NCBI RefSeq assembly: GCF_016887565.1
Contig: NZ_CP069396.1
Coordinates: 10,770,001-10,834,000, forward strand
Direction of reading: 5' to 3'
Length of the DNA stretch: 64,000 nucleotides
Origin: Archangium violaceum
GTDB taxonomy: Bacteria; Myxococcota; Myxococcia; Myxococcales; Myxococcaceae
Position 1 is the stretch's first letter; every line of letters begins with the position of its first letter. The notes beneath the pieces are model-generated. The model saw only the letters and a program-made list of their open reading frames with translations, was not told the origin of the DNA and did not search any database. This document shows positions 4,072 to 49,963 of this stretch, one piece after another. Position numbers and translations under genes: made by a program.

Positions 4072-4377
4072 ATGGCAGGCAAGTTCAGCGGTCCCACGCC
4101 CCCCGCCCGGGGCTACACGGAAGCCGTCACCCAGTCGCGCGGGCCCACCGAACAGGCCGGGCGCGGTGTCCCCGACGAGCGGCGTGCCTTCTCCGAGCAG
4201 CGCGAGGGCCACTTCCCGGGCAACGCGGACGACGACACCGTGACCGGCCGCAAAGCGGGCTACGGGGCCGACCCCGGCAACACGCCTCCCGGCTCGGCGG
4301 TCGAGGCGGCGAGCGGCTCCGAGGACGCCGGCACGGAGAGCGACGAAGCACCCAGCGGTCGCGTGCAGGGCGGGTAG
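4072..4377 (+). CDS. Small hydrophilic hypothetical protein
   Basis: This 101-residue protein is rich in Gly, Pro, Asp, Glu and Arg and has no predicted membrane segment or signal peptide. It looks intrinsically disordered. Its composition (GRGVPDERRAF, HFPGNADDDT) resembles small myxobacterial proteins of unknown role. The start is supported by CAGGAG seven bases before ATG 4072, and codon use matches the genome. It lies 21 bp upstream of the EEP-family gene, so the two may be co-transcribed. No function can be named. Confidence 0.6.
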   Translation: MAGKFSGPTPPARGYTEAVTQSRGPTEQAGRGVPDERRAFSEQREGHFPGNADDDTVTGRKAGYGADPGNTPPGSAVEAASGSEDAGTESDEAPSGRVQGG

Positions 4378-4398
4378 TGCACACACAGTAGAGGACTC

Positions 4399-5640
4399 AT
4401 GCCAGGACAGGCCCTCTCGCGACTATTGGATCGCCTCCCCTTCGGGAGGAATGTCATCGACGGAGTCCCCGTCGCTCCACCCCAGCACCTGCCGCACCGC
4501 GAACCCACCCGGGTCTTCCAGGGGTTCGACCCGCTGCCACCGGCGGACGGTCCGCGCCAGCTCGGGACGGGCGACACGCTGCTGGTGCACCACCCCCAGC
4601 CGCGCCCGACCCGCGACCACCTTCTCCGGGTGATGACGTACAACATCCTCCTGGGTGGAACGCACCGGCAGTTGCTGGAGCGCTACTTCATCGAGCTGGA
4701 GACGAGCGGCCGGATGCCGGACGTCATCGCTCTCCAGGAGGCCAGCCAGCCCACCGCCATGGAGCTCGCGCGCGACTACGGCTTCCACGTCGCCTACCAC
4801 GGCCGCGACATCGGCGGCCCCGTGGTGAACGGCAAGGCCATCCTCAGCCGCCACCCCATCCTCGAGGCCGCGCACTACACCTACGCCTTCCCCGAGGAGG
4901 CACGCGCGGCGGCCATCGCCCGCCAGGGCTTCGTGGGCGAGCTGGACGAGGACCGGGGCGCCCTCTTCACGCTGCTCCAGGTGTTCGGCCAGACGGTGGC
5001 CCTCTACTGCGTGCACCACACCCTGGGCGACAGCGGCATCAACGCCGGCCAGCTCTGGCAGCTCCAGGCCGTCCTCCACTCCCGCGACGGCGTGCCCTCC
5101 ATCGCCCTGGGCGACTTCAACGCCAACATCAACGTCAAACACCACTACTCGCTGCTGCCCAACCCCCTGCGCAAGCACGAACCCACCGAGACGGTGAAGG
5201 ACTACGAGTCCCGCTACGGCGACGTGCACCCCAGCGTGGGCGACTGGGGCGTGGGCAACATCGCCGACGTGCGCGTGCGCCGCGCCCTCCACGCGCTCGA
5301 GCACGAGCTGCCGGATCCGCTCCACCGCGCCCGCGAGCGGCGCGTGCGGCTGCCGGACGGCACCTTGCTGAGTCCGGAGGAGGCCCGCGAGATGCTCGTG
5401 GCCGGCAAGGTGCCCAAGGGCTCCCCGCAGTGGCTGCGGCTCCAGGACGTGGCGGACCTGTCCACCCTCAACGCCCTGCCCGACGGCACGGGCGTACCCC
5501 CCGCCACCGGCAAGCGCTTCGACACCTTCTTCGCCTCCCGCCAGCTCGAGCCCTTGCTGCTGGAGGTGGACCACTCCACCGAGGCCTCCGACCACCTGCC
5601 CTCCTTCGCCGACTTCCAGCTGCGCGACACCCGCCACTGA
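4399..5640 (+). CDS. Endonuclease/exonuclease/phosphatase-family protein
   Basis: The 413-residue protein has the full EEP (DNase I-like) motif series after an approximately 75-residue N-terminal extension. The motifs are VMTYNILLGG (metal-binding Asn), DVIALQEAS (catalytic Glu), NGKAILSRHPI, ALGDFNANIN (Asp/Asn pair), and a C-terminal SDHLPSFADFQL with the Asp-His dyad. Members are Mg-dependent phosphodiesterases or phosphatases acting on nucleic acids, sphingomyelin or inositol phosphates; the substrate here cannot be read from sequence. A longer insert (about residues 250-370) between the Asp/Asn motif and the SDH motif is unusual. No signal peptide is seen, so a cytoplasmic location is likely. 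Confidence 0.8.
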   Translation: MPGQALSRLLDRLPFGRNVIDGVPVAPPQHLPHREPTRVFQGFDPLPPADGPRQLGTGDTLLVHHPQPRPTRDHLLRVMTYNILLGGTHRQLLERYFIELETSGRMPDVIALQEASQPTAMELARDYGFHVAYHGRDIGGPVVNGKAILSRHPILEAAHYTYAFPEEARAAAIARQGFVGELDEDRGALFTLLQVFGQTVALYCVHHTLGDSGINAGQLWQLQAVLHSRDGVPSIALGDFNANINVKHHYSLLPNPLRKHEPTETVKDYESRYGDVHPSVGDWGVGNIADVRVRRALHALEHELPDPLHRARERRVRLPDGTLLSPEEAREMLVAGKVPKGSPQWLRLQDVADLSTLNALPDGTGVPPATGKRFDTFFASRQLEPLLLEVDHSTEASDHLPSFADFQLRDTRH

Positions 5641-5709
5641 GTCCGCCCTGGTGGGGACGGCGGCTTCCTGCTGAAGTCGCCCCTCCCCCTTCAGGAGGAG
5701 AATCCCGCC

Positions 5710-6444
5710 GTGGTCCGACTCTTCGTCCCGCTCCCGGAGCCCACCCCCTCCGAGGTGACGCTCACCGGCGAGCGGCGTCACTACCTCGTCCACGTCCTGC
5801 GGCTCGGCGAGGGCGCCTCGCTCGAGGTCTTCGACGGCGCGGGCCGCTCCTGCCAGGCGCGCGTGGCCTCGGTGGACGCGGACGCGGTGCGCCTGGAGCT
5901 CGGCGAGGCCCGGCACGCTCCACCCCGGCGCCAGGTGCACATCCTCCAAGGGCTCCCCAAGGGCGACAAGCTGGAGTGGGTGCTGCAGAAGGGCACCGAG
6001 CTGGGCGCCACCGCCTTCCACCCCGTGGCCGCCGCGCGCAGCGTGGTCAAGCTCGAGCCCAAACGCGCCGAGGAGCGCACCGCCCGGTGGGCGAAGATCG
6101 TCGAGGAGGCCGCCCGCCAGTGCCGGCGCGATGACGTGCCCGTCGTCCACCCCCCTCGCCCGATGGTGGAGGCGGCACGCGCGCTCGCCCCGGGCACCAC
6201 CCTGCTGGTGCTCGACGAGGAGGAGTCCGCCGTCCCCCTGGGCGAGGCCTTCCGGAGCAGCGCCCCCGGCTCCCCCGTCGCCCTCGTGGTGGGCCCCGAG
6301 GGCGGACTGGCCCGCGAGGAAGTCCAGGCACTCCGGGCGCTCGGTGGACGTCCCGTCACCCTGGGCCGGCTCATCCTCCGCACCGAGACGGCCGCGCTCG
6401 CCGCCCTGGCGGTGATGGCGCACCTGGATGGGGAGCTCGGTTAG
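5710..6444 (+). CDS. rsmE: 16S rRNA m3U1498 methyltransferase RsmE
   Basis: RsmE methylates N3 of U1498 in 16S rRNA. The 244-residue product has an N-terminal PUA-like domain (RLFVPLPEP, RHYLVHVLRLGEG) and a C-terminal SPOUT knot domain. The hallmark knot motifs are present: LVVGPEGGLAREEV (about residues 193-206) and LGRLILRTETAALAAL (about 218-233). LPKGDKLEWVLQKGTELG (about 81-98) is also typical. Translation starts at GTG 5710, preceded by AGGAGGAG. The gene stands 69 bp after the EEP gene, possibly as part of the same transcript. Confidence 0.95.
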   Translation: MVRLFVPLPEPTPSEVTLTGERRHYLVHVLRLGEGASLEVFDGAGRSCQARVASVDADAVRLELGEARHAPPRRQVHILQGLPKGDKLEWVLQKGTELGATAFHPVAAARSVVKLEPKRAEERTARWAKIVEEAARQCRRDDVPVVHPPRPMVEAARALAPGTTLLVLDEEESAVPLGEAFRSSAPGSPVALVVGPEGGLAREEVQALRALGGRPVTLGRLILRTETAALAALAVMAHLDGELG

Positions 6445-8353: not shown

Positions 8354-11056
8354 GTGCCTGCCGGCCGCGGCTCTAAGATGCCGCGTCCCCCCATGCCTTC
8401 CCATCTTGCCCATACCCTGATCGCGCAAGGCCTCCTCTCCAGGGACAAGGCCGAGGAAGCCCTGCGGCATCAGGTAGCGCAGGGTGGCACCATCGACACC
8501 GCGCTGCTGGAGCGCCGGCTGCTGCCGGAAGCCCAGGTGCTGCAGGCGCTCGGAGATGCCTCGGGGCAACGCCCCGTCAACCTCGCCGACTTCGAGCCCA
8601 ACGCGGACGTCGCCTCCTTCATCCCTCCGAAGATCGCCGAGCGCCTGTGCGTGGTGCCGCTGTCGCTCGACGGCAGCACCCTGCACGTGGCCTGCGGCTA
8701 CCCGGTGCCCCAGAAGGAGCTGGACGAGGTGGGCTTCCTCCTCGGCAAGGCCCTGGAGCTCTGGGTGGCCACCGAGGTCCGCATCCGCGAGTGGATCTCC
8801 GTCATCTACCGGCAGCCGCTCGCCCCGCGCTACGCCACGCTCCTCGCCTCGCTCGACCCCGCGGCGGCTCCTCCCCCGGCGCCACCGCCCCAGGTGCAGG
8901 CCCAGCCCGCGCCGGCCCCTGCTCCGGCTCCGAAGCCCGCCGCCACCGCCGCTCCGGTCCCGGCTCCGAAGCCCGCCGCTCCGGCCCCCGCGCCGAAGCC
9001 CGCCGCCCCCGACGAGTCCGCGCTCACCATGGAAATGGTGGAGCGGCTGGCGCGCTCGGTGGCCGCCGAGCCCGTCGCGGTCGAGGAGCCGAGGCCCATC
9101 GCGCCGCCCGCACAGCCGCAGCGCACCAGCGCGCCCCCGGCCCCGCACGCCGCTCCCGTCCAGCCCGCGCGTCCGGCCGCCAACACCGCGCCCCCGGTCG
9201 CCGCGCCGCCTCCGGCCGCCATCCGTGAGCCGCTGCGCCTGAACATGTCCGAGCCCGCGCGTCCCGCGGCTCCGGCCCAGCCGCTCCAGGCCCAGCCCGC
9301 TCCCGTGGCACGCCCCGCGGCTCCGCCTCCGCAGGCCCAGCCCGCGGCTCCGGCCATCACGCGTCCGCCGGTGCAGCCGCAGGCCCAGCCTCCCGCGCCC
9401 GCGCCTCAACCCATCGCCGCCTCGGGCGGTGCCCAGCCGCGCCCGATGCTCGAGCCGCGCGCTCCGGCGGCCGCCGCGCCGCAGTCCCCCCGGGACGACG
9501 TGCCCGACTGGACGCTCGCGCAGGCTCGCGCCGCCCTCAAGGAGTCCACGAGGGACCGCGACCGGCTCATCGACACCGCCCTGCGCTTCGGGCGCCGCAC
9601 CTTCGACTACGTGGCCGCCTTCGCCGTGTTGCGCGGCGCGGCCGTGGGCTGGGACGCGCGCGGCGAGGGCCTGGCGAGCGACAAGCTGTCGCTGGTCTCC
9701 GTCCCGCTCGATGCCTCCAGCGTCTTCCGCACCGTGGCCATCACCCGCGGCAGCTACGCGGGCCCCATGCCGCCGGACAGCCTGACGAAGCACTACCTGG
9801 AGCTGTTCGGCCGCCAGCCGCCCCGGACCCTCTTCCTCTACCCGGTGGAGGTGCGCGGCCGGCTCGTGGCCGTCCTCTATGGCGACTGCGGGCAGAAGCC
9901 CATCAGCCAGCGCCGCCTCTCCGACTACATCCTGTTCTGCCAGGACCTGCCCGCCGCCTTCCAGGAGCTCATCCTCTTCCGCAAGCAGAGGCTGGGGGAG
10001 CTGCGCAACTCGCTGGACTTCGACGTGGACGTGGACGAGCAGCCCGCCGCCAGCACCGGCACGGCCCCGAGCGCCCCGCCCCCCGCGATGGCCGCGGGCC
10101 TGGGGTGGAGCCCCTTCGTCACGCGCTCCGCCAACGCGCTGGGCCGCGCCGCCGCCATGGCGCCGCTGGTCATGTCCCAGGAGGAGCGGCCGCCCCCGGA
10201 CTTCGGCCCCATCCTCAAACGCCTCACCGGCCCGGACGCCAACCAGCGCTCGAGCGCCATGGCCGAGCTGGCGCGCTCGCCCGAGGCCAGCGCCAAGGTG
10301 CTCGCCACCCACTTCCCCGGCCCCACGGCGTGGAGCCGCCTGCCGGTGGTGGACCTGCCCGAGGCCGACGAGCTGGGCCCCATCCCCGGCGCCCTGTCGC
10401 GGCTCGGCCGGCCCGCGGCCCAGGCGCTGGCGCCCCTGCTGGACTCGAGTGACGCGGACACGCGCTACTTCGCGCTCCTCACCGCCGGCAGCCTCCCGTA
10501 CGCGGAGCTGGTGGACGGGGTGCTGCGCGGCCTCTTCGACTACGAGCCGGACATCTCCAGCGCCGCGCGCGTGGCCGCCGCCGCGCTCAAGCACCTGCCG
10601 CGCCTGGACGCCGCGAAGAAGGATCTGCGTCAGGAGCTGGGCAGCCGGGACGCGCTGAGGCGCTCGCTGGCCGCGCGGGCCCTGGGCACGCTGCACGACC
10701 GGGAGGCCATCGAGGGCCTCATCAACCTCACCGGCACCGACGACGAGATGTGCGCCCAGGCCGCCGCCGAGGCGCTGCGCGAGGTGACGCGCGCCACGTT
10801 CGGCCTGGACAAGCGCGCGTGGACGGCGTGGTGGACGGACAACCGGCAGCGCCGCCGCGCGGACTGGCTGGTGACGGCGCTGCGTCACCCGGAGCTGGAC
10901 ATCCGCCTGGCCGCCATCGAGGAGCTCAGCCGCGGCATCAACGACACGCTCGGCTACTACGCGGACGCCCCCGAGCCCGAGCGCGAGGCCGCCGTGCGCC
11001 GGTGGGAGAGCGCGGTGGCGGACCCCGCCCGTGCGCGTCGGCTGGCCCTGCTCTGA
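8354..11056 (+). CDS. GspE-N/GAF-like/HEAT-repeat fusion protein
   Basis: The 900-residue protein has three modules. Residues 15-155 resemble the N-terminal domain of type II/IV pilus ATPases (GspE_N/MshEN), with repeats such as LLSRDKAEEALRHQVAQGG and PKIAERLCVVPL. In some proteins this domain binds c-di-GMP. A roughly 220-residue Ala/Pro linker follows. Residues 380-545 look GAF-like (AFAVLRGAAVGWDARGEG, LYPVEVRGRLVAVLYGD). Residues 620-830 form HEAT-like helices (ALGTLHDREAIEGLINLTG). There is no ATPase core, so it is not a secretion motor. GTG 8354 has AAGGA six bases upstream; ATG 8378 or 8393 are alternatives. A histidine kinase starts 21 bp downstream, so the pair probably works together in signalling. 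Confidence 0.7.
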   Translation: MPAGRGSKMPRPPMPSHLAHTLIAQGLLSRDKAEEALRHQVAQGGTIDTALLERRLLPEAQVLQALGDASGQRPVNLADFEPNADVASFIPPKIAERLCVVPLSLDGSTLHVACGYPVPQKELDEVGFLLGKALELWVATEVRIREWISVIYRQPLAPRYATLLASLDPAAAPPPAPPPQVQAQPAPAPAPAPKPAATAAPVPAPKPAAPAPAPKPAAPDESALTMEMVERLARSVAAEPVAVEEPRPIAPPAQPQRTSAPPAPHAAPVQPARPAANTAPPVAAPPPAAIREPLRLNMSEPARPAAPAQPLQAQPAPVARPAAPPPQAQPAAPAITRPPVQPQAQPPAPAPQPIAASGGAQPRPMLEPRAPAAAAPQSPRDDVPDWTLAQARAALKESTRDRDRLIDTALRFGRRTFDYVAAFAVLRGAAVGWDARGEGLASDKLSLVSVPLDASSVFRTVAITRGSYAGPMPPDSLTKHYLELFGRQPPRTLFLYPVEVRGRLVAVLYGDCGQKPISQRRLSDYILFCQDLPAAFQELILFRKQRLGELRNSLDFDVDVDEQPAASTGTAPSAPPPAMAAGLGWSPFVTRSANALGRAAAMAPLVMSQEERPPPDFGPILKRLTGPDANQRSSAMAELARSPEASAKVLATHFPGPTAWSRLPVVDLPEADELGPIPGALSRLGRPAAQALAPLLDSSDADTRYFALLTAGSLPYAELVDGVLRGLFDYEPDISSAARVAAAALKHLPRLDAAKKDLRQELGSRDALRRSLAARALGTLHDREAIEGLINLTGTDDEMCAQAAAEALREVTRATFGLDKRAWTAWWTDNRQRRRADWLVTALRHPELDIRLAAIEELSRGINDTLGYYADAPEPEREAAVRRWESAVADPARARRLALL

Positions 11057-11077
11057 CGCGGTGAGGACGAGGGAGTC

Positions 11078-12622
11078 ATGACGAGCCAGGCGTGGATCAG
11101 CCTCGGGGCCTGCGCGGGGCTGCTGGCGCTGGCGGGCCTGGCGCTGGTGCGCGTGGGGCGCAGCCCGATGGCGCTGCCGCTCTCGGTGCTGTGCATCACG
11201 CTGTCCACGTGGAACTTCGCCGACTTCGCGCTGGCGCACTCGGGTGAGCCGGGCTGGCGCATCATGGCCCTGGCCGCGGCGCTGATGAGCGTGCCGTCCG
11301 CGCTGCACTTCATCCTCGCCTTCGTGGGAGAGCGGCGCCGGCTGGCGGTGGTGATGTTCTCCAGCTACGGCGTCTTCGGGGCGATGACGGTCACGGCGCT
11401 GGCGGCGCTGGGCTCGGCGCGCGTGGCCCAGGTGGTGAGCTCGCGAGGCTTCGCGCTGCTGGTGCTGGCGTTCAGCGGGCCGCTGCTGCTCGGGGGCTTC
11501 GGCCTGCTCACCCAGCACCTGCGCCGCGAGGTGCGCTCCACCGAGCGCACCCGGGCGGGACTGCTGCTCACGGGACTGGCGCTGCTGGTGACGCTGCTGA
11601 GCACGGACCTGGTGGCGGTGCTGGGCCAGGACGTGCCGCGCCTGGGCAACCTGGGCACGCTGCTGGGCCTGCCGGCGATCGCCGTGGTGGCGCTGCGCCT
11701 GCGCCTCTTCGGACGGGATTTGTCCAACGTCCACGCCATGTACGCGCTGCTGCTGGCGCTGATGGGCGTGCTGTCCTACCTGGCCGTCTTCCAGTTGTTC
11801 GCCGCGCAGTACGGCGCGCTGGTGGTGGGGACGGCCGCCATCACCCTGGTCCTGCTGGCCACCATGCGCCGGGGCGTCATCGCCTACGTGGCCCAGCGCG
11901 AGCGGCTGGAGCAGATGGCCACCCTGGGCCGCTTCTCCGCGCAGATGGCGCACGACCTGAAGAATCCCATCGCCGCGCTCAAGGGCGCCGCGCAGTACCT
12001 CAAGGTGGAGCACGCCCAGGGCCGTCCCTGGGACGACAAGGGTGACTTCCTGGACCTGCTGCTGGAGCAGGTGGAGCGGCTGGACCGGGTGGTGAGCACC
12101 TACCAGCGCCTGGGGAGGGTGGAGCCGTTGCGAGCGCCGCTGGACCTGAACGAGCTGGTGGCGAGCGTGCTGTCCCTGCAGGCCTTCACCGGACGCCCGG
12201 AGGTGCAGCTGCGGCGCGAGCTGGCGGTGGATCCGCCGCGCTGCTCCGGGGATTGGGATCTGCTGGCCAACGCGCTGGAGAACCTGGTGCGAAACGCCTT
12301 CGAGGCCATGCCGCGCGGAGGCACCCTCACGGTGCGGACCCAGGTGGTGGGTACGGGCCTGGTGCTGAGCGTGGAGGACACGGGCGAGGGCATGAACGTG
12401 CGCACGCGCGAGCGGGCCTTCGACGACTTCTACACCACCAAGGCCATGGGGAGCGGACTGGGGCTCGCCTTCGTGCGGCGGGTGGTGGAGGCCCATGGCG
12501 GACAGGTCTCGCTGACGAGCCACGAGGGGCGAGGCACCACCGTGACGCTGCGCCTGCCGGCCTCCGAGGCACCCGCCGGTGTGCCCGTATCCGGACAGGG
12601 CGCTCCCTGGCCGAGCTGCTGA
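11078..12622 (+). CDS. Membrane-bound sensor histidine kinase
   Basis: The 514-residue kinase has about seven or eight N-terminal hydrophobic helices (residues 7-265) resembling the 7TM/MASE-like input region of histidine kinases. The HisKA domain follows, with phospho-acceptor His292 in the H-box QMAHDLKNPIAALKGAA. The HATPase domain carries an N-box (NALENLVRNAFEAMP), a G1 box (DTGEGM) and a G2 box (GSGLGLAFVRRVVEAHGG). It should autophosphorylate and pass phosphate to a response regulator; no receiver gene is adjacent, so it is an orphan by position. It is 21 bp downstream of the GspE-N/HEAT gene, suggesting one operon. Confidence 0.88.
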   Translation: MTSQAWISLGACAGLLALAGLALVRVGRSPMALPLSVLCITLSTWNFADFALAHSGEPGWRIMALAAALMSVPSALHFILAFVGERRRLAVVMFSSYGVFGAMTVTALAALGSARVAQVVSSRGFALLVLAFSGPLLLGGFGLLTQHLRREVRSTERTRAGLLLTGLALLVTLLSTDLVAVLGQDVPRLGNLGTLLGLPAIAVVALRLRLFGRDLSNVHAMYALLLALMGVLSYLAVFQLFAAQYGALVVGTAAITLVLLATMRRGVIAYVAQRERLEQMATLGRFSAQMAHDLKNPIAALKGAAQYLKVEHAQGRPWDDKGDFLDLLLEQVERLDRVVSTYQRLGRVEPLRAPLDLNELVASVLSLQAFTGRPEVQLRRELAVDPPRCSGDWDLLANALENLVRNAFEAMPRGGTLTVRTQVVGTGLVLSVEDTGEGMNVRTRERAFDDFYTTKAMGSGLGLAFVRRVVEAHGGQVSLTSHEGRGTTVTLRLPASEAPAGVPVSGQGAPWPSC

Positions 12623-43755: not shown

Positions 43756-45168
43756 ATGCTCTCCTTCGTTCTCGCGACCACGCTCGCCGCCGCCCCCGCG
43801 CCCCGCGCCACCACCGCCTCGGGAACCGTCGTCCACATTCCGCGGCTGGACGCGCTCAAGGGGGTCACCGCCTTCATGGACCGGGCCGGACAGAACGCCG
43901 CCCTGATGCGGCCCGTCGTCTGGTTCGCCGAGCTCCACCCCTACCTCTCGCTCGACCCCAGCCAGCCGGAGACCCTCACCCGTGCGGGCATCGACCCCAC
44001 CGGCCCCATCACCGTCTCCCAGCGCAGCACCGGCCGCATCTCCTGCACGCGACTGACGGACCCCAAGGCCTTTCAGGAGAGGGCCGCCGCGATGCTGGAG
44101 TCCGCGGGGAGCAAGGCGGAGGTGAAGCCCACCACCTCTGGAGGCGTCACCACGGTGAGCGTCCCGCGCGAGTCCGGTGGCCAGGCCGGCTATGCCCTCA
44201 AGGGCCAGGAGGCATGTGCCTTCGCGAGCTCCGGCGGAGGCTTCGTCGACGATGGGCAGGGTCAGGTGCTGTTGAAGGAGGCCTCACGGCTGGTGAGCAA
44301 GGCGCCCAAGGCGGACGCGCGGCTCGCGCAGTTGCCCGGGGTCGCCTACGTGCTCATGCCCGAGCGCGGCATGGTGGTGGGCGTGGATGGCAGCGGCTCC
44401 GAGCTGCGGCTGGAGGGCACCGCCACGGAGCTTCCACTGCCGCCCTTCCAGACCGCGGGGACGAGCCCCTACGGCGCGATGAAGCCCGAGGGGATGCTCG
44501 TCTCCCGGGCACGGGTGGCACCGTCCGGGGTGGCCCAGGCCGTGGGCGGCGTGCGCGCGAGCATCCAACAGGTGTGCCCCGCCTGCCCTCCGGCCCAGGT
44601 CTCCGCGGTGGCTCGCGCGGTGGCCGAGCGCCTCACCGGCAACGTGCTGATGGTGGTGGACAGCGTGAGGTCTCGCCCCAACCTCCGTACGCCCGAGGGC
44701 CGCTTCTTCGCTCCGCGTCAGGCGCTCGCCGCCGAGGTGACGGACACCGCGGCGATGAAGGCCGCGCTCGCGCCACTGGCGAAGTTCCCCGGCGCGAGGA
44801 CGTTGGAGGACGGGTATGCGCTGAACGTGCAGGGGGGTTCCGTCTTCGTCCGGTTGAAGGGCCGGCACCTCGTGCTGGGCAATGACGAGGCGGTGGCCCA
44901 GTCGCTCGTGACCGGCCTGCCCCAGGAGGGCGCGAAGCTGCCCCACGCGGTGGACTTCACGGTGGATCCGAAGCGGCTGTCGCGCGGGCTGAACCAGGTA
45001 TCGCTGATGGACGTGGTCTCCCAGCAGGAGCTCGCCGCCATCTTCGCCGTGGGACTGGAGTTGGGGCCCCTGCTGGCCAACAGCGAGCGGATCTCCGGCT
45101 GGCTCGACAGCACCTCCGGCGGTGCTCACCGCTTCTCCTCCACCTGGACGCTGCCGGCTTCGCCTTAG
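43756..45168 (+). CDS. Exported protein of unknown function
   Basis: The 470-residue protein starts with a signal peptide (MLSFVLATTLAAAPA). The rest is a mixed alpha/beta sequence with two blocks of similar architecture (about residues 15-215 and 230-460), each containing hydrophobic strands (VTAFMDRAGQ, GVAYVLMPERG, HLVLGNDEAVAQSL). It resembles the DUF3352-like class of secreted proteins in length and layout, but that link is tentative. A TTGACA element lies about 35 bp upstream. It is the last gene before the low-GC island. Confidence 0.5.
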   Translation: MLSFVLATTLAAAPAPRATTASGTVVHIPRLDALKGVTAFMDRAGQNAALMRPVVWFAELHPYLSLDPSQPETLTRAGIDPTGPITVSQRSTGRISCTRLTDPKAFQERAAAMLESAGSKAEVKPTTSGGVTTVSVPRESGGQAGYALKGQEACAFASSGGGFVDDGQGQVLLKEASRLVSKAPKADARLAQLPGVAYVLMPERGMVVGVDGSGSELRLEGTATELPLPPFQTAGTSPYGAMKPEGMLVSRARVAPSGVAQAVGGVRASIQQVCPACPPAQVSAVARAVAERLTGNVLMVVDSVRSRPNLRTPEGRFFAPRQALAAEVTDTAAMKAALAPLAKFPGARTLEDGYALNVQGGSVFVRLKGRHLVLGNDEAVAQSLVTGLPQEGAKLPHAVDFTVDPKRLSRGLNQVSLMDVVSQQELAAIFAVGLELGPLLANSERISGWLDSTSGGAHRFSSTWTLPASP

Positions 45169-45679
45169 AACGTATCTCGGTAACAGCCAGGAAGCTCGCA
45201 GCCTGGGATGTTGGCAGCAGAGCGCGGCTCCAGATAGCCCCTTCTCCAATGGGAAACGAGCGAGGACCTTCGGAGTTTACTTTGTAGAAGATTGGGAGCT
45301 GAAGAGTGGGACTGGTAAAGCAGGACGGCTGGAAGATGCCAGACAATCTGAGGGCCAAACAAGATGGAGCCTCTTCTGCCGCCGCGTCCGCCGCCCCCTG
45401 TGGGCTGCCACAACCCGGAAGTGGATGACAGACGAGCAGCGGGCGCCATCCCGTTGGTGCGGCGCACGGGCATGAGTGACAGGGGCTGAAGGCAAATGGT
45501 AACTGGGACGTCTTCTGTCGCCGAACAGCTGCTCTATCTACCCAGCCCCGTCGAGCCTACTCACCCGGTTAGGCATCCACCCTGGGGGCCTTCACATTCA
45601 CGAGCGTCATTGCCCAGACCTACCCAGAACCAGTCAGCTCCACCGAGGTCACTATCGAGCAACCTCCAAGCATTAGACA
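45169..45679. other. Intergenic region at the left edge of the low-GC island
   Basis: This 511-bp stretch holds no supported gene. Base composition falls compared with the genes to its left. It starts directly after the stop at 45168 and ends at the nuclease stop at 45680. A minus-strand frame ends in GCYRDTF at 45168 and looks like decayed insertion-sequence coding, but no inverted repeats were found. It is probably a recombination scar. Confidence 0.4.
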
Positions 45680-46870
45680 TCAGGGCTCATGACGAAAGCC
45701 CCTAGCCCAGTTGAGATTTCCAGCCTTTGCAGCTAGATTCTTTAACAACCAATCATACGTGTGAACATCTACCCCCCTGGGCAAAGTATTCGTCGTTTTG
45801 TCTGACCATTTATATTGTTCGCTGCCTTGCCGACCAATCAGGACCAGACCCGGCGTATCAATTTCTATGTCCGTGAGCCCAAGGCCGCTGTGTTCCTTAG
45901 GACGACGCGCGAAGTCGATGTTGCGTTTTAGCCAGCGCCGCCAGCGCCTTATCCTGGATACAGCAGATGCAAGAGCGGCCTCGTGCGATTCTCTGGCAAA
46001 ATCTAGCTGTGGGTTTTCCAATTCAACCACAAACCACTCATGGCCCATTGTTGAGTTTTCGCTAATCAGGAAGTCCACTGAAGGAGCCACCGTGAGTTCG
46101 GCTCCAGGTATGACGTAGCGACCATGTCCTCCACGGAGATGCTCAATTAGAAGATGCCTATGCTCAACTACGTAATCGCACAATTCGTTTTCGGAACACC
46201 GGCTAATCGCCGCAGCAAATTCAGTCACGTCCTCTTCAGTGACACGATCCCACCACACATGGAATTCGCGAAGAGGATCTCCTTCGAGCAAGTCCAAGGC
46301 ACTGACGATTGTGAAGGGGCTGCCTATTTGAGGGGTGAACTGGGCCGAAAAAGGAGCTTTCTCCAAGAAACGTTCGGGAAACAAATCCTTGGCAGACACA
46401 AAACCGTCACTTGATTCATCTGCCCTTCTCTTCTTGGCCTTGAGCAATTCAATAAGTCCAACCTTGCGCTCTATGATGGCGTAGATATCTTCTCTATCCA
46501 TACCAATGAGCGCCGTGGGCCGACCGACAGGATACGCTTTCCGCGCATCTTCAGTAAACCCTGCGATGCTGACAAAGAGACCACGGGTGCTCTTGGTCTT
46601 TGCCTGTACCTTCCCATGAAGCACGAGCAGGTCTTTCAGGTCAGCCGAATCCTGTCGCCATCGCGCTTCGACAAGATACGTCTCGCTGCCCAGAATCAAG
46701 CTCCCATCGATTTGTTCGCCAATATTGCGGAAGGACTTGCGTGGCTTCAAGCCGCTCCACTTAAAAAGCTCGTGAAGCCATACCTCAAACAGATAGCCCC
46801 GCTTCTGCGTATTCTCCTCCAAGAGTAGTTGTAGAAAAAGATCTTTCAGCTCACTTATTGGGACGGTCAT
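45680..46870 (-). CDS. Predicted defence nuclease: Mrr-like plus Shedu-like (DUF4263) domains
   Basis: The 396-residue protein appears to contain two nuclease-like domains. Residues 20-120 resemble the Mrr-type restriction endonuclease core: GYLFEVWLHELFKWSG, then Asp55 in IGEQIDGSLI and Glu68-Ala-Arg70 in YLVEARW, where the usual Lys of ExK is Arg. Residues 215-320 resemble the Shedu SduA/DUF4263 core: SVDFLIS with Asp266, and WFVVELENP with Glu283, where the usual Lys is Glu. Both are PD-(D/E)XK folds. Such proteins cut invading DNA. Codon use is clearly less GC-rich than the flanking genes. The start is ATG 46870; an IS element lies 118 bp upstream. Confidence 0.62.
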   Translation of the reverse strand: MTVPISELKDLFLQLLLEENTQKRGYLFEVWLHELFKWSGLKPRKSFRNIGEQIDGSLILGSETYLVEARWRQDSADLKDLLVLHGKVQAKTKSTRGLFVSIAGFTEDARKAYPVGRPTALIGMDREDIYAIIERKVGLIELLKAKKRRADESSDGFVSAKDLFPERFLEKAPFSAQFTPQIGSPFTIVSALDLLEGDPLREFHVWWDRVTEEDVTEFAAAISRCSENELCDYVVEHRHLLIEHLRGGHGRYVIPGAELTVAPSVDFLISENSTMGHEWFVVELENPQLDFARESHEAALASAVSRIRRWRRWLKRNIDFARRPKEHSGLGLTDIEIDTPGLVLIGRQGSEQYKWSDKTTNTLPRGVDVHTYDWLLKNLAAKAGNLNWARGFRHEP

Positions 46871-46988
46871 TTCGCGATGCGCTCCGACTCATCTACGCCA
46901 CTCCAGAGCAGCGTAGTCTTGAAACGAGCCTGCATCAATCTCGTAACTCTCCCGCTTCCCATGTGGTTCAGCGACAACGGGCACGTAA

Positions 46989-47010
46989 GAGCTCGTTTCA
47001 AAAATGGACC
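46989..47010 (+). repeat. Left terminal inverted repeat of the IS
   Basis: The 22 bp begin GAGCTCGTTTCAAAAATGG and are identical to the reverse complement of 47958-47979. The preceding TAA (46986-46988) is the left copy of the target duplication. Confidence 0.9.
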
Positions 47011-47035
47011 TGAGAGGTCAGGTAACATGCCCTGC

Positions 47036-47871
47036 CTATTCAGGGCCATTTCGTAAATGGCGCTCAAGCACGCGATAGAGAAGGAGGCAGTGGCCAAGGC
47101 GAAGGAGTGCCAGGTGCATCTGTGGGTTCCGCTCTTCGCGAATCCGCAGGCGTTTCATCTGGTGGAACCAGTCCAGGGAGCGCTCCACCACCCAGCGATG
47201 GCGTCCCAAACGCTCCTTCGACTCCACGCCTCGGCGGGCGATGCGGGGAACGATGTGGCGCTTCCGTAATCCCCGGCGGGTATCGGCATAATCGTACCCC
47301 TTGTCGCCGTGCCCTTTCGCCGGACGCCTGCGTGGCCTGCCTCGTGGCCCCTTGATGGGGAGGATGGCGTCGAGGAGCGGCAGCGCCTCGCGCTTGTCGT
47401 GCACGTTGGCGGCCGACAGCAAGGTGGCCAGCGGCAGGCCCCGGCGGTCTACGACCAGGTGGTGCTTGCTGCCCGCCTTTCCTCTGTCCGTTGGATTCGG
47501 GCCTGTTTGGGCCCCCCTTTTATCGCCCGTAGGCTGCTGGAGTCGAACGAGGCCCGGCTCCAGTCAATGAGCCCCTTGTGCCCCAACTCGTTCAGCAACA
47601 CCCGCTGGAGCTTCTCGAAGACTCCTGCTCGGCTCCACTTTCGCAGCCTCCTCCAGCACGTCGCCCCGCTGCACCCGAACACCTCGGCTGGCAGGTCTCT
47701 CCAGGCGATGCCCGTCCTGAGCACGAAGATAATGCCCCGCAGGCACGCCCTATCGTCGCGCAATGGACGACCTCTTCTCCCTTTGCGGCGATGTCGTGGC
47801 AGCAGCGGCTCCACCCTCGCCCACAGCTCGTCCGGGACCAGTTCGCGCCTCATGCTTGCGAGGATGAGCAC
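47036..47871 (-). CDS. IS5-family transposase with programmed -1 frameshift
   Basis: Two overlapping frames encode the transposase. The first (47871 to 47449, 140 residues) has the IS5 N-terminal domain (LPRHRRKGRRGRPLRDDRACL, GIAWRDLPAEVFGCSGATCW) and the first catalytic Asp in LIDWSRASFDSSSLRA. At ATAAAAGGGGGG (47512-47523) a -1 shift enters the second frame. That frame continues GAQTGPNPTDRGKAGSKHH and then LSAANVHDKREALPLLD, with the last Glu in GRHRWVVERSLDWFHQMKRL. The fused product is about 275 residues, the usual size. Frameshift expression of this kind is known in the IS427 group. Confidence 0.88.
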
Positions 47872-47957
47872 CAGGTACGTAGAGGGAAGTCTGGATACCT
47901 CTGCGGTTCATTTATGAAACAATCCCGGGGAGGCAGGTCAGATGACCTAGGCTCCCT

Positions 47958-47979
47958 GGTCCATTTTTGAAACGAGCTC
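47958..47979 (-). repeat. Right terminal inverted repeat of the IS
   Basis: This 22-bp repeat is the perfect reverse complement of 46989-47010. The following TAA (47980-47982) matches the TAA at the left end and completes the target duplication. Confidence 0.9.
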
Positions 47980-48242
47980 TAAGCAGCATCGCGCCACCAT
48001 CCCCATGCGCTCAGGAACCACACAAAGTGCGAGAGAGCCAATTTCGTGGACTGCCCATATGGTATTACGGGATTACTTCCTCTACGGGCGAAGCACATCT
48101 CCAAGGAAAATCCCCTCGGAGCACCGTCCAAGTGACCGGGTAGTAACAGAGCCTGTTTCGGCAAGTGCTGCTCCTAACGGACGGCTCCTCAACAGACAAG
48201 GTAGATGGAAAACCTACCGAAACAGATTCCAAATAAGCTTAT

Positions 48243-48596
48243 TCATTCAGGATCTAGCGCCCAGGTACCTTCCTCCCACCGCTTCAACGCTTCGGAGGAC
48301 TCAAATGCGACCAGTCCCTCTCCCTTCGCGGCCTCCTCCAAGACCGCCTTGGCCTCCGCTGTCCGGTAGCGAAGAAGGAACGAGGCCGCCGTGGTCCTCA
48401 CATCCACGTTGGGATGCATGAGCAGTACGGTGAGCGCATCTCGCCCGGCATCACCGTGGGCACGTAGCTTCTTGAACGCGGCGATGTACCGATCCGCGTG
48501 CTTGTTGCCGGTCTTGGCGTCCCCGCGAAAGATAGCATCCGACTGCGCGGCTACGCTTCGAGCGAACTCCTGGACCAGTTCTTCGAGCTTCGTCAC
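48243..48596 (-). CDS. DUF2019 HEAT-like protein, candidate immunity protein
   Basis: The 117-residue protein matches DUF2019: MTKLEELVQEFARSVAAQSD, then YIAAFKKLRAHGDAG and a HEAT-like tail (VDVRTTAASFLLRYRTAEAKAVL). DUF2019 proteins often lie next to polymorphic toxins in myxobacteria. Here its ATG (48596) overlaps the toxin stop (48593-48595) by ATGA, so the two are translationally coupled. The immunity role is inferred from this position. It should neutralise the HNH-like nuclease tip of the toxin in the producing cell. Confidence 0.75.
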   Translation of the reverse strand: MTKLEELVQEFARSVAAQSDAIFRGDAKTGNKHADRYIAAFKKLRAHGDAGRDALTVLLMHPNVDVRTTAASFLLRYRTAEAKAVLEEAAKGEGLVAFESSEALKRWEEGTWALDPE

Positions 48597-49927
48597 CAGA
48601 TACCTCTTCTTACGTAATCGATGGCTCGCAGTCCGAATTGACGCTGGGCTTCATAGGATTGCGTGCTCAGCCACTGCCTGACGGTCAGGGTATCCGAACC
48701 TGTGATCCTGGGCCGCTTGGACGAATAGAGCGCGCTGACATCCATGTGCAGGCCCTCTTCCAACCGAACGACGTTCTCGGTGTTGTGAATGGCCTCGGAG
48801 CCGAACCGGCCGACATTGCGCTGCTCGACAATGTGGTGCCATTGCTTGCCCTCGCCCGCCGGCCCCATGAAGTCCTTGAAGTCATCGAAGGACTTGAAGG
48901 CGCGGTGACCATTGGGAAGAACCCAGCCGTCCCTCCCTCCGTTCCGTGCGGCCATCGCAACGGCATTGAGAGGCAGGACAACGCGGATGGAGCCCTCGGC
49001 GGCCGAGATGACGACCTTTTCCGTCTCGGCAACGGCCGCGAGCATGCGCACGCCGCCATGTTGCGCCCCCGAGCCCGCGGCCTGCGCGAAGCCAGGCAGC
49101 TTCGGCGCCTTGGACATGAGCGCTGCGGTCTCCCCGAGCGCCGCCGTCCCTACCATGACGAGGATGCGCACACTGTTGGGCCCGATGCGCTGGCCGAACC
49201 GCTCTCCCGCCTCACGTAGTTCCGTGAAAGAGGTAGCTCGCGCTGAATCCTCCGAGAGCACCATCCATCCTTCGATGAGCTCCCACAACTCCATCCCCAG
49301 ATAGCCCCACATGAGAACCGCGAAGGCAGCGGCGGCCCCCTTGGACACCGGTTCCGGTGCCACCAGTAGCGCCATGTAGGCCGTGAGGGTGATGCTCACC
49401 ATGGCCGTCACACGCGCGGGGCTGAGCATGGCTCGCACCTCCGCATCCACACCCTCCAAGGCCGGGCCTACGGCTAACGCCAGCGCAATGCGACGCTTGT
49501 CGTCATCTCGCAGGTGTGGACCATCCTCGAAGAGCGTGAGGCAGTCGCCTGGAGTGCCACGCCTTTCGCAGAAGCGCCCGTAGGACCGGGCCAATTCTGA
49601 CTGCCACGTCCCACCCACCAGGGGTCCAGAGGCCAGCGCCAACCTGCGGCCAGGAAGCAACGGAACATGAGAGGGCGCCAACCGCAGCGGCATCTCCAAA
49701 ACCAGATGCGCCACGGCGTCCAAGAACTCCGCCTCGCCCACCCGCACCGGCCCGAAACTCGTAGGCAATGCGGCGAAGACCCGCTCATGCTCCCCGAGCG
49801 CCACTTCCCGCATAGAGGATGCCCCGGTGGCGCATCCCCCCAGCAGCACGAGCGCCGCCAGCACCAGGACGGGCATCCAGGGACACCGCTGCTGGCCCTC
49901 GGGGTATGAGGCGAAACGAGCGAACAT
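48593..49927 (-). CDS. Sit-like polymorphic toxin lipoprotein, HNH-like nuclease tip
   Basis: The 444-residue protein has a lipoprotein signal ending in lipobox LGGC (Cys32). A trunk (about residues 40-330) includes the hydrophobic block TAYMALLVAPEPVSKGAAAAF and RFGQRIGPNSVRILVMV, which also occur in the toxin at 57464. The C-terminal tip (about residues 345-444) carries GKQWHHIVEQRNVGRFG (His364, His365), AIHNTENVVRLEEGLHMDVSALY and a basic end, matching an HNH-like toxin of the SitA5 type. SitA lipoproteins of Myxococcus move between kin cells by TraA-dependent outer-membrane exchange. The immunity gene overlaps its stop. The start codon is not firmly fixed. Confidence 0.78.
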   Translation of the reverse strand: MFARFASYPEGQQRCPWMPVLVLAALVLLGGCATGASSMREVALGEHERVFAALPTSFGPVRVGEAEFLDAVAHLVLEMPLRLAPSHVPLLPGRRLALASGPLVGGTWQSELARSYGRFCERRGTPGDCLTLFEDGPHLRDDDKRRIALALAVGPALEGVDAEVRAMLSPARVTAMVSITLTAYMALLVAPEPVSKGAAAAFAVLMWGYLGMELWELIEGWMVLSEDSARATSFTELREAGERFGQRIGPNSVRILVMVGTAALGETAALMSKAPKLPGFAQAAGSGAQHGGVRMLAAVAETEKVVISAAEGSIRVVLPLNAVAMAARNGGRDGWVLPNGHRAFKSFDDFKDFMGPAGEGKQWHHIVEQRNVGRFGSEAIHNTENVVRLEEGLHMDVSALYSSKRPRITGSDTLTVRQWLSTQSYEAQRQFGLRAIDYVRRGIW

Positions 49928-49945
49928 GCCGCATTGTGCACTTCA

Positions 49946-49963
49946 CTTGCGGACGTCCGTAAG
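49946..49963. promoter_or_regulatory. Palindromic operator candidate 1
   Basis: CTTGCGGACGTCCGTAAG is an 18-bp near-perfect palindrome in the divergent region between the Sit-like toxin gene and the carboxyltransferase gene. A near-copy lies exactly 42 bp downstream, four helical turns, so dimers would bind the same DNA face. TTGCGG within it, followed 16 bases later by TACACA, could be a -35/-10 pair. Confidence 0.6.

Follow-up and report, generated by a model that had tools for sequence, protein, structure and literature searches.

Shedu systems have been described, in passages of PMC12409362 and PMC12904381, as a shared nuclease core placed behind varied N-terminal domains, some of which sense DNA ends. 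For Escherichia coli Shedu, parts of PMC12904381 assign the binding of DNA ends to an N-terminal clamp and nicking to the Shedu nuclease domain, and in a different defence protein an N-terminal Mrr-family domain has been found on a beta-propeller (passages of PMC9519451). Outside Gu et al. 2025 and Loeff et al. 2025, the two principal papers on Shedu, the literature listings searched contained no report of a fusion between Mrr and Shedu domains. Such a fusion is described here from the window, i.e. the whole stretch of 64,000 nucleotides of Archangium violaceum DNA that was analysed. The protein, P0001, has 396 amino acids and is encoded at 45680..46870 on the reverse strand, with its ATG at 46870. 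Its N-terminal part is a Mrr_cat / FokI-BspD6I-like PD-(D/E)XK domain (residues ~20-168, 46367..46813, reverse strand), delimited by Pfam, the structural model, fold matches and conservation, and its C-terminal part is a SduA_C (Shedu) PD-(D/E)XK domain (residues ~201-387, 45710..46270, reverse strand), delimited by Pfam, fold matches and profile-profile comparison. The layout is that of type I Shedu, a single gene in which a different domain stands N-terminal to the nuclease domain.

Mrr_cat and SduA_C, the latter being the domain named DUF4263 by PADLOC, are the only Pfam domains in the protein. Mrr_cat matches residues 26-113 with 30.6 bits (E 3.9e-7; cut-off 21), and SduA_C matches residues 231-376 with 25.8 bits (E 1.4e-5), which is 1.2 bits under its cut-off of 27. 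The C half is also matched by the PADLOC SduA models (best E 1.5e-8), whereas the N half gave weak PADLOC matches to PDC-S02 (0.0012) and mREase_IV (0.0062), and a search of NCBIfam with the protein rendered no match. The four relatives of the C-terminal branch that were tested all pass the SduA_C cut-off (L069, 58.3 bits; L025, 52.7; L070, 50.4; L114, 31.6), and the profile of this branch matches E-x-K Shedu domains with E 7e-8, its E-x-E being aligned on their E-x-K. The protein is counted as a member of the SduA_C family on the strength of its relatives and its fold, and not of the cut-off alone. A sequence search of the PDB with the protein, the N profile and the C-branch profile gave nothing real, the one row obtained (E 0.76) being due to chance as judged from its alignment; a sister E-x-E profile, A5, matched the Shedu entry 8ti9 (1.5e-4), although unrelated helicases began to appear at 2.7e-4. 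No match to each other was detectable between the profiles of the N half and the C half (probability 0.2), and tandem copies of one domain were rejected on this ground. The first-pass annotation had proposed two different PD-(D/E)XK domains in one protein, and on this point it is borne out by Pfam, the fold matches described below and the mutually unmatched profiles; the domain search that it had called for found both Mrr_cat and DUF4263. Its suggestion of a variant of Shedu is also the classification that suits the protein best. The protein is not filed as a Mrr type IV restriction enzyme, a kind with a Mrr-type N-terminal DNA-binding domain and restriction of methylated DNA; Pfam shows its two domains and no others.

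In the full-length AlphaFold2 model, built from 14 alignment rows, the mean pLDDT reached at least 90 in 14 of the 17 blocks that make up the N half (residues 1-170). The C half lay mostly below 65 for want of relatives, and was therefore modelled a second time, alone and from 9 rows, with middling confidence (pLDDT 64.6, pTM 0.64). Rows of the fold searches less than 1 Z apart were counted as tied. The best match of the N half was to the nuclease part of Nt.BspD6I (Z 11.3, 162 residues, 3.8 A), followed by that of R.BspD6I2 (2p14; Z 10.2), AF1548 (9.6), FokI (9.2), HindIII (8.1), AspBHI (7.8) and MspJI (7.4), and MspJI was also the first Foldseek match (E 2.3e-4). For the C half, the first four rows were all Shedu (E. 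coli, with and without DNA, Z 9.3 and 9.2; Bacillus cereus, 8.9 and 7.7), with the next row at 6.9, and 8ti9 came first with Foldseek (E 2.1e-4); the alignment from which this half was modelled included known-type Shedu homologs, so that its match to the Shedu fold is supportive and not independent. Cross-matches were found as well, the N half aligning to Shedu entries at Z 6.8 and 6.6, amid RNA polymerase subunits at about Z 7, and the C half to BspD6I (Z 6.7) and FokI (Z 6.1), and they can be ascribed to the fold that the two halves share. According to the predicted secondary structure, D55 and E68 are located in a pair of strands ahead of a helix with K87, whereas D266 immediately precedes a strand and E283 lies close to the end of the strand after it, ahead of a helix with W310 and R311. 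In the models, therefore, the putative site residues of both domains lie where the fold wants them.

Computed from the open reading frame, the N-terminal site is at 46661..46708 on the reverse strand (D55, 46706-46708; E68, 46667-46669; R70, 46661-46663). Its D and E are thus present, and Arg is found at position 70 in place of the Lys of a D...(E/D)xK site. Among 37 aligned Mrr-like rows, which are a convenience set and not a random one, 29 have Lys at position 70 and 8 have Arg, and the residues kept elsewhere are D55 in 36/36 readable rows, E68 in 37/37, E29 in 32/35 and K87 in 28/37. The Arg rows are the window protein, four loci of its own genus (L002 and L016-L018) and a diverged group (L012-L014); one protein of each of these two groups was tested (L016 and L014) and neither gave a Mrr_cat match, which indicates that those Arg groups are distant. 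In the ortholog from Corallococcus that is described below, the N-terminal site is a regular EAK.

The C-terminal site, also computed from the open reading frame, is at 46016..46075 on the reverse strand (D266, 46073-46075; E283, 46022-46024; E285, 46016-46018). Its motif is E283-L-E285, i.e. E-x-E, compared with E-I-K in B. cereus Shedu (8ti8). The catalytic E-x-K Lys of characterised Shedu nucleases, which is not part of the Pfam definition of SduA_C, is therefore replaced by Glu in the window protein, and it is replaced by Gly in the ortholog. In type II restriction enzymes this Lys can be replaced by Glu (BamHI), Gln (BglII and NotI) or Asn (MspI), as passages of PMC4081073 describe. Pfam matches to SduA_C were found in 12 of 195 genomes of the phylum, the domain of the window, under the cut-off, being excluded; this search missed the genome of the window as well as G050 and G063, which hold such domains, and none of 14 control genomes gave a match. 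E-x-E is present in five of the 11 matches that could be read at the site (L058, L059, L060, L061 and L064) and E-x-K in the other six (L057, L062, L063, L065, L066 and L068); L067, unreadable at the site, is omitted from this count, and if L068, which like L067 scores below the cut-off, is set aside too, the figure becomes 5/10. In the Shedu branch to which the window protein belongs, six of the seven members read have E-x-E (L025, L042, L069, L070, L114 and the window), the seventh, with E-x-G, being the Corallococcus ortholog.

Arg70 and Glu285 stand in place of the ExK Lys exactly as the first-pass annotation had it, but its view that the loss of both lysines is unusual was rejected in view of these counts (5/11 SduA_C domains and 6/7 members of its own branch with E-x-E, 8/37 rows with Arg70) and of the EAK of the ortholog. 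Counted in relatives of both domains, the two replacements recur in sub-branches, a recurrence that does not by itself imply that activity is spared, and both sites, as read from the sequence, keep their carboxylates. The second Glu is invariant in the five E-x-E Shedu domains, from which constraint on it might be argued; this was discarded as circular, the five having been picked as being of the E-x-E type. E-x-E is a common form of the site among SduA_C domains, and a search demanding E-x-K would have missed 5/11 of the readable domains of the phylum.

One ortholog with the full layout was found, a protein of 391 residues and 47% identity from Corallococcus praedator (L028, the same as L005; genome G063), and its existence rules out an assembly or frameshift fusion, or a chance run of motifs. 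Identity amounts to 76/149 in the Mrr-like part, 91/186 in the Shedu part and 7/26 in the linker. The two orthologs share G25, E29, E52, D55, E68, K87 and K91 in their N halves and, in their C halves, D266, E283, W310, R311, H370 and D373, which, together with the low figure for the linker, suggests that both halves of the fusion are maintained, conservation here being that of one pair, the two fusions found. SduA_C matches the ortholog with 19.7 bits, 7 bits under the cut-off, and no Mrr_cat match was obtained for it at 0.01. Full-length matches were found in two of 147 genomes of the class, and the same two among 195 of the phylum, and none in a sample of 296 genomes of the phylum to which a Balneolaceae MAG belongs or in 386 from that of a Prauserella; in the whole-genome profile searches fusion status was judged from the range of the match, and their tallies are lower bounds because only some of the first-look candidates were scored. 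Two scans of collections, made with short peptide patterns that can miss relatives, found the full layout nowhere but at this Corallococcus locus. Of the seven loci that one of them gave, L033 and L034 (25% identity) were dropped, since they appeared by eye to encode an unrelated isomerase-like protein; the genome of L033 was used only as an entry point to actinobacteria. No match to the fusion protein was found in phage records by tblastn, nor in PHROGs to either of the two fusions.

The ortholog is located inside the head module of a prophage, on the strand opposite to the head genes, in the order terminase, portal, two unknown genes, fusion, prohead protease and major capsid, and the DNA of this prophage is also present in IMG/VR (100% over 11,149 bp). 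The two unknown genes between portal and fusion (L028 9644-10720 and 9330-9647, both on the reverse strand) rendered no Pfam, PADLOC or PHROGs match. One of them encodes a 358-aa protein that reads by eye like a PD-(D/E)XK protein (DLVV...FEVK) and whose start we take to be EVE-like. This site of the prophage could be one at which defence genes are carried as cargo.

In the window, the fusion gene and an IS element make up an insert of ~3,080 bp (~45167..48246), as deduced from congeners in which the DNA is joined across the region. In G046 the matching DNA stops at 45166 and resumes, after 57 bp, at 48247; in G045 it passes from 45166 to 49956 with 9 bp in place of 45167-49955, and in G043 from 45164 to 48771 with ~540 bp in place of 45165-48770. 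Three of the five congeners thus lack the insert at this site, the other two (G044 and G047) having the left flank and no right flank in the compared stretch, and no full-length relative of the fusion was found in any of the five. The gene has a GC content of 0.510 and a GC3 of 0.534, compared with a GC3 of 0.955 and 0.957 for two nearby genes and of 0.720 and 0.773 for the adjoining DUF2019 and lipoprotein genes, two further genes that had been cut out of frame being excluded. That the gene had been acquired, as was first suggested from its codon use, is upheld by both kinds of evidence.

The IS element, with an IS4/5-family (DUF4096) transposase, is at 46988..47980, ~117 bp upstream of the start codon of the fusion. 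The matches listed for it in the genome include ten that are near full length and at 100%, that of the window being one of them, and for this reason the transposase was rejected as part of the system. Its ends, as read, are imperfect over 72 nt and have TAA on both sides, and the transposase is apparently split in two frames (47449-47871 and 47036-47422). Among the larger open reading frames of the insert, no gene besides those of the IS was recognised with the fusion, and no defence gene beside it, which fits a single-gene system. Next to the insert, at 48243-49927, a DUF2019/HEAT-type small protein adjoins a lipoprotein-like protein that is without a Pfam match and whose C-terminal part contains a HNH-like stretch, KQWHHIVEQ. 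DNA resembling the DUF2019 gene is present at many places in the genome of the window and in the congeners, and our guess is that the two genes form a dispersed pair of the toxin-immunity type.

Both modules are also found apart. A search of 72,556 plasmid records with the fusion protein gave matches in 1402, most of them from Klebsiella (1139), and none of these matches covers 80% of the query; since the C part alone matches six records, nearly all plasmid matches correspond to the N module. In the four plasmid proteins that were read, this module is C-terminal, behind other N-terminal parts, and one of the four adjoins qatABCD. In a Sulfitobacter plasmid (L024), a PDC-S01 candidate at 4304-6429 (annotated as ATP-binding, E 2.3e-175) overlaps the gene of a 301-aa Mrr-module protein, and the pair is located directly before a qatABCD system. 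At another locus (L107, in genome G742; frame 367-1971 of the reverse complement), a protein of 535 residues (Pfam RVT_1 and Mrr_cat) carries the N module behind a retron-type reverse transcriptase, which matches, from E 1.1e-139, PADLOC single-gene retron types that have TIR, protease or Toprim tails. It looks, from this arrangement, like a single-gene retron with a Mrr-like effector; among the best matches of a literature search for retron and Mrr, no title dealt with such a fusion. The location of the N module where related retrons carry TIR, protease or Toprim tails points to an effector, and in these other proteins the module looks like a swappable one. The C branch without the head is found in Rhodococcus plasmids (five of the six plasmid records matched by the C part) and in three of 394 actinobacterial genomes, two of which (L069 and L070) were read and scanned. 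A Klebsiella plasmid (L027) has a gene for a Mrr-module protein (5581-6444) and an annotated Shedu immune nuclease gene (10873-11673), unfused and ~4.4 kb apart.

The fusion is probably a defence nuclease, and the reading that we prefer, tentatively, is that of an acquired single-gene nuclease of the Shedu type with a Mrr/FokI-like module in the slot of the sensor, in which the N head would cut and the Shedu tail would engage DNA. The Shedu domain would assemble an oligomer and help to engage invading DNA, the N-terminal Mrr-like site would cut it, with or without a contribution from the E-x-E Shedu site, and the two heads would check each other until foreign DNA is bound. The role of the protein would be anti-phage. 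The N head is narrowly favoured as the cutter because its module is effector-like elsewhere, its acidic residues are present in both orthologs, and Gly is found at the Shedu site of the ortholog. Counting against this reading, the third catalytic position is other than Lys in both sites of the window protein and is Gly at the Shedu site of the ortholog, the SduA_C scores of both proteins are under the cut-off, and the ortholog lacks a Mrr_cat match. The middling confidence of the C-half model, the cross-matches between the folds, the finding of two fusions only and the lack of a recognised defence gene beside the fusion in the insert weigh on the same side. Moreover, by analogy with E. coli Shedu, in which it is the N-terminal clamp that binds ends, the N half would be the sensor, which counts against the N head as cutter.

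It is possible, although in our opinion less probable, that the protein is an ordinary type I Shedu in which only the Shedu domain cuts, by means of a BamHI-like E-x-E, the Mrr-like domain being a DNA-binding sensor that confers specificity, as is the case with other N-terminal domains. Passages of PMC12137116 and PMC12409362 describe type I proteins as having one nuclease domain in common, preceded by N-terminal regulatory domains of various kinds; the end-binding clamp of E. coli Shedu (part of PMC12904381), the prevalence of E-x-E in the branch and a possible weakening of the N site by Arg70 also speak for this reading. However, E29, D55, E68 and K87 are kept in both orthologs, that of Corallococcus having a regular EAK, the Gly at the third place falls on the Shedu site of the ortholog and not on its N site, and the N module is effector-like elsewhere. 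It could also be the case, and we regard this as rather doubtful, that the sensor slot has been filled with an effector module of which a single-gene retron has its own copy, and that the E-x-E Shedu domain is, partly or wholly, the sensing half that licenses a second nuclease; if true, Shedu would have been turned from an effector into a sensor.

A pseudo-nuclease Shedu domain, serving as a DNA clamp or as the core of an oligomer while the Mrr-like head does all the cutting, appears to us unlikely. The Lys of E-x-K is missing from the Shedu site of both orthologs (Glu in the window, Gly in Corallococcus), and its counterpart K557 is needed in Vibrio cholerae Shedu, where K557A abolished protection according to part of PMC12137116; but D and the first E are kept, and E-x-E works in BamHI (part of PMC4081073) and is common in SduA_C. 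That the gene is decaying cargo, brought by a mobile element and drifting with both sites already damaged (Arg70 and Glu285), is highly improbable in spite of the recent insert, the IS close to its start codon and a low GC not adapted to the host, since the frame is open over its full length, the residues that are near-invariant in relatives of the N module are present, and both substitutions recur in relatives. What matters is that a nuclease module, effector-like elsewhere, makes up the N-terminal part, with two sets of acidic site residues in one chain.

A comparison with the known proteins situates the fusion as follows. Like the Mrr_cat family (PF04471), MspJI and AspBHI, and the cleavage domains of FokI and Nt.BspD6I, its N-terminal domain has core strands with D55 and an E-x-K/R followed by a helix with K87; unlike enzymes of the Mrr_cat type, it has Arg at position 70, no other domain of such enzymes according to Pfam, and a Shedu domain fused to it. 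The module is shared with a family of plasmid 'restriction endonucleases' of ~300 aa (WP_165989367 and WP_138925266), with at most 47.6% identity among the matches listed, but in that family it is C-terminal (four proteins read) and no Pfam Shedu domain was found in the three proteins tested. The C-terminal domain is 38.2% identical over 173 query residues to the SduA-domain protein WP_065353053 of a Rhodococcus plasmid, with GGHGR and VELE shared, although this protein, of 251 aa, is without the Mrr-like head. Many types of Shedu N-terminal domains are reportedly listed by Gu et al., and the Mrr-like head may be among the published ones. As in Shedu (B. cereus 8ti8/8ti9, E. coli 8ps4/8ps5 and V. 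cholerae VcSduA), a C-terminal PD-(D/E)XK domain stands behind an unrelated N-terminal domain in one gene, its identity to the Shedu PDB entries being 11-13% in structural alignments. Unlike in Shedu, E-x-E is found instead of E-x-K and the N-terminal domain has itself a nuclease fold, and the interest of the fusion would lie in this apparently effector-like module, placed where a Shedu protein usually has its sensor.
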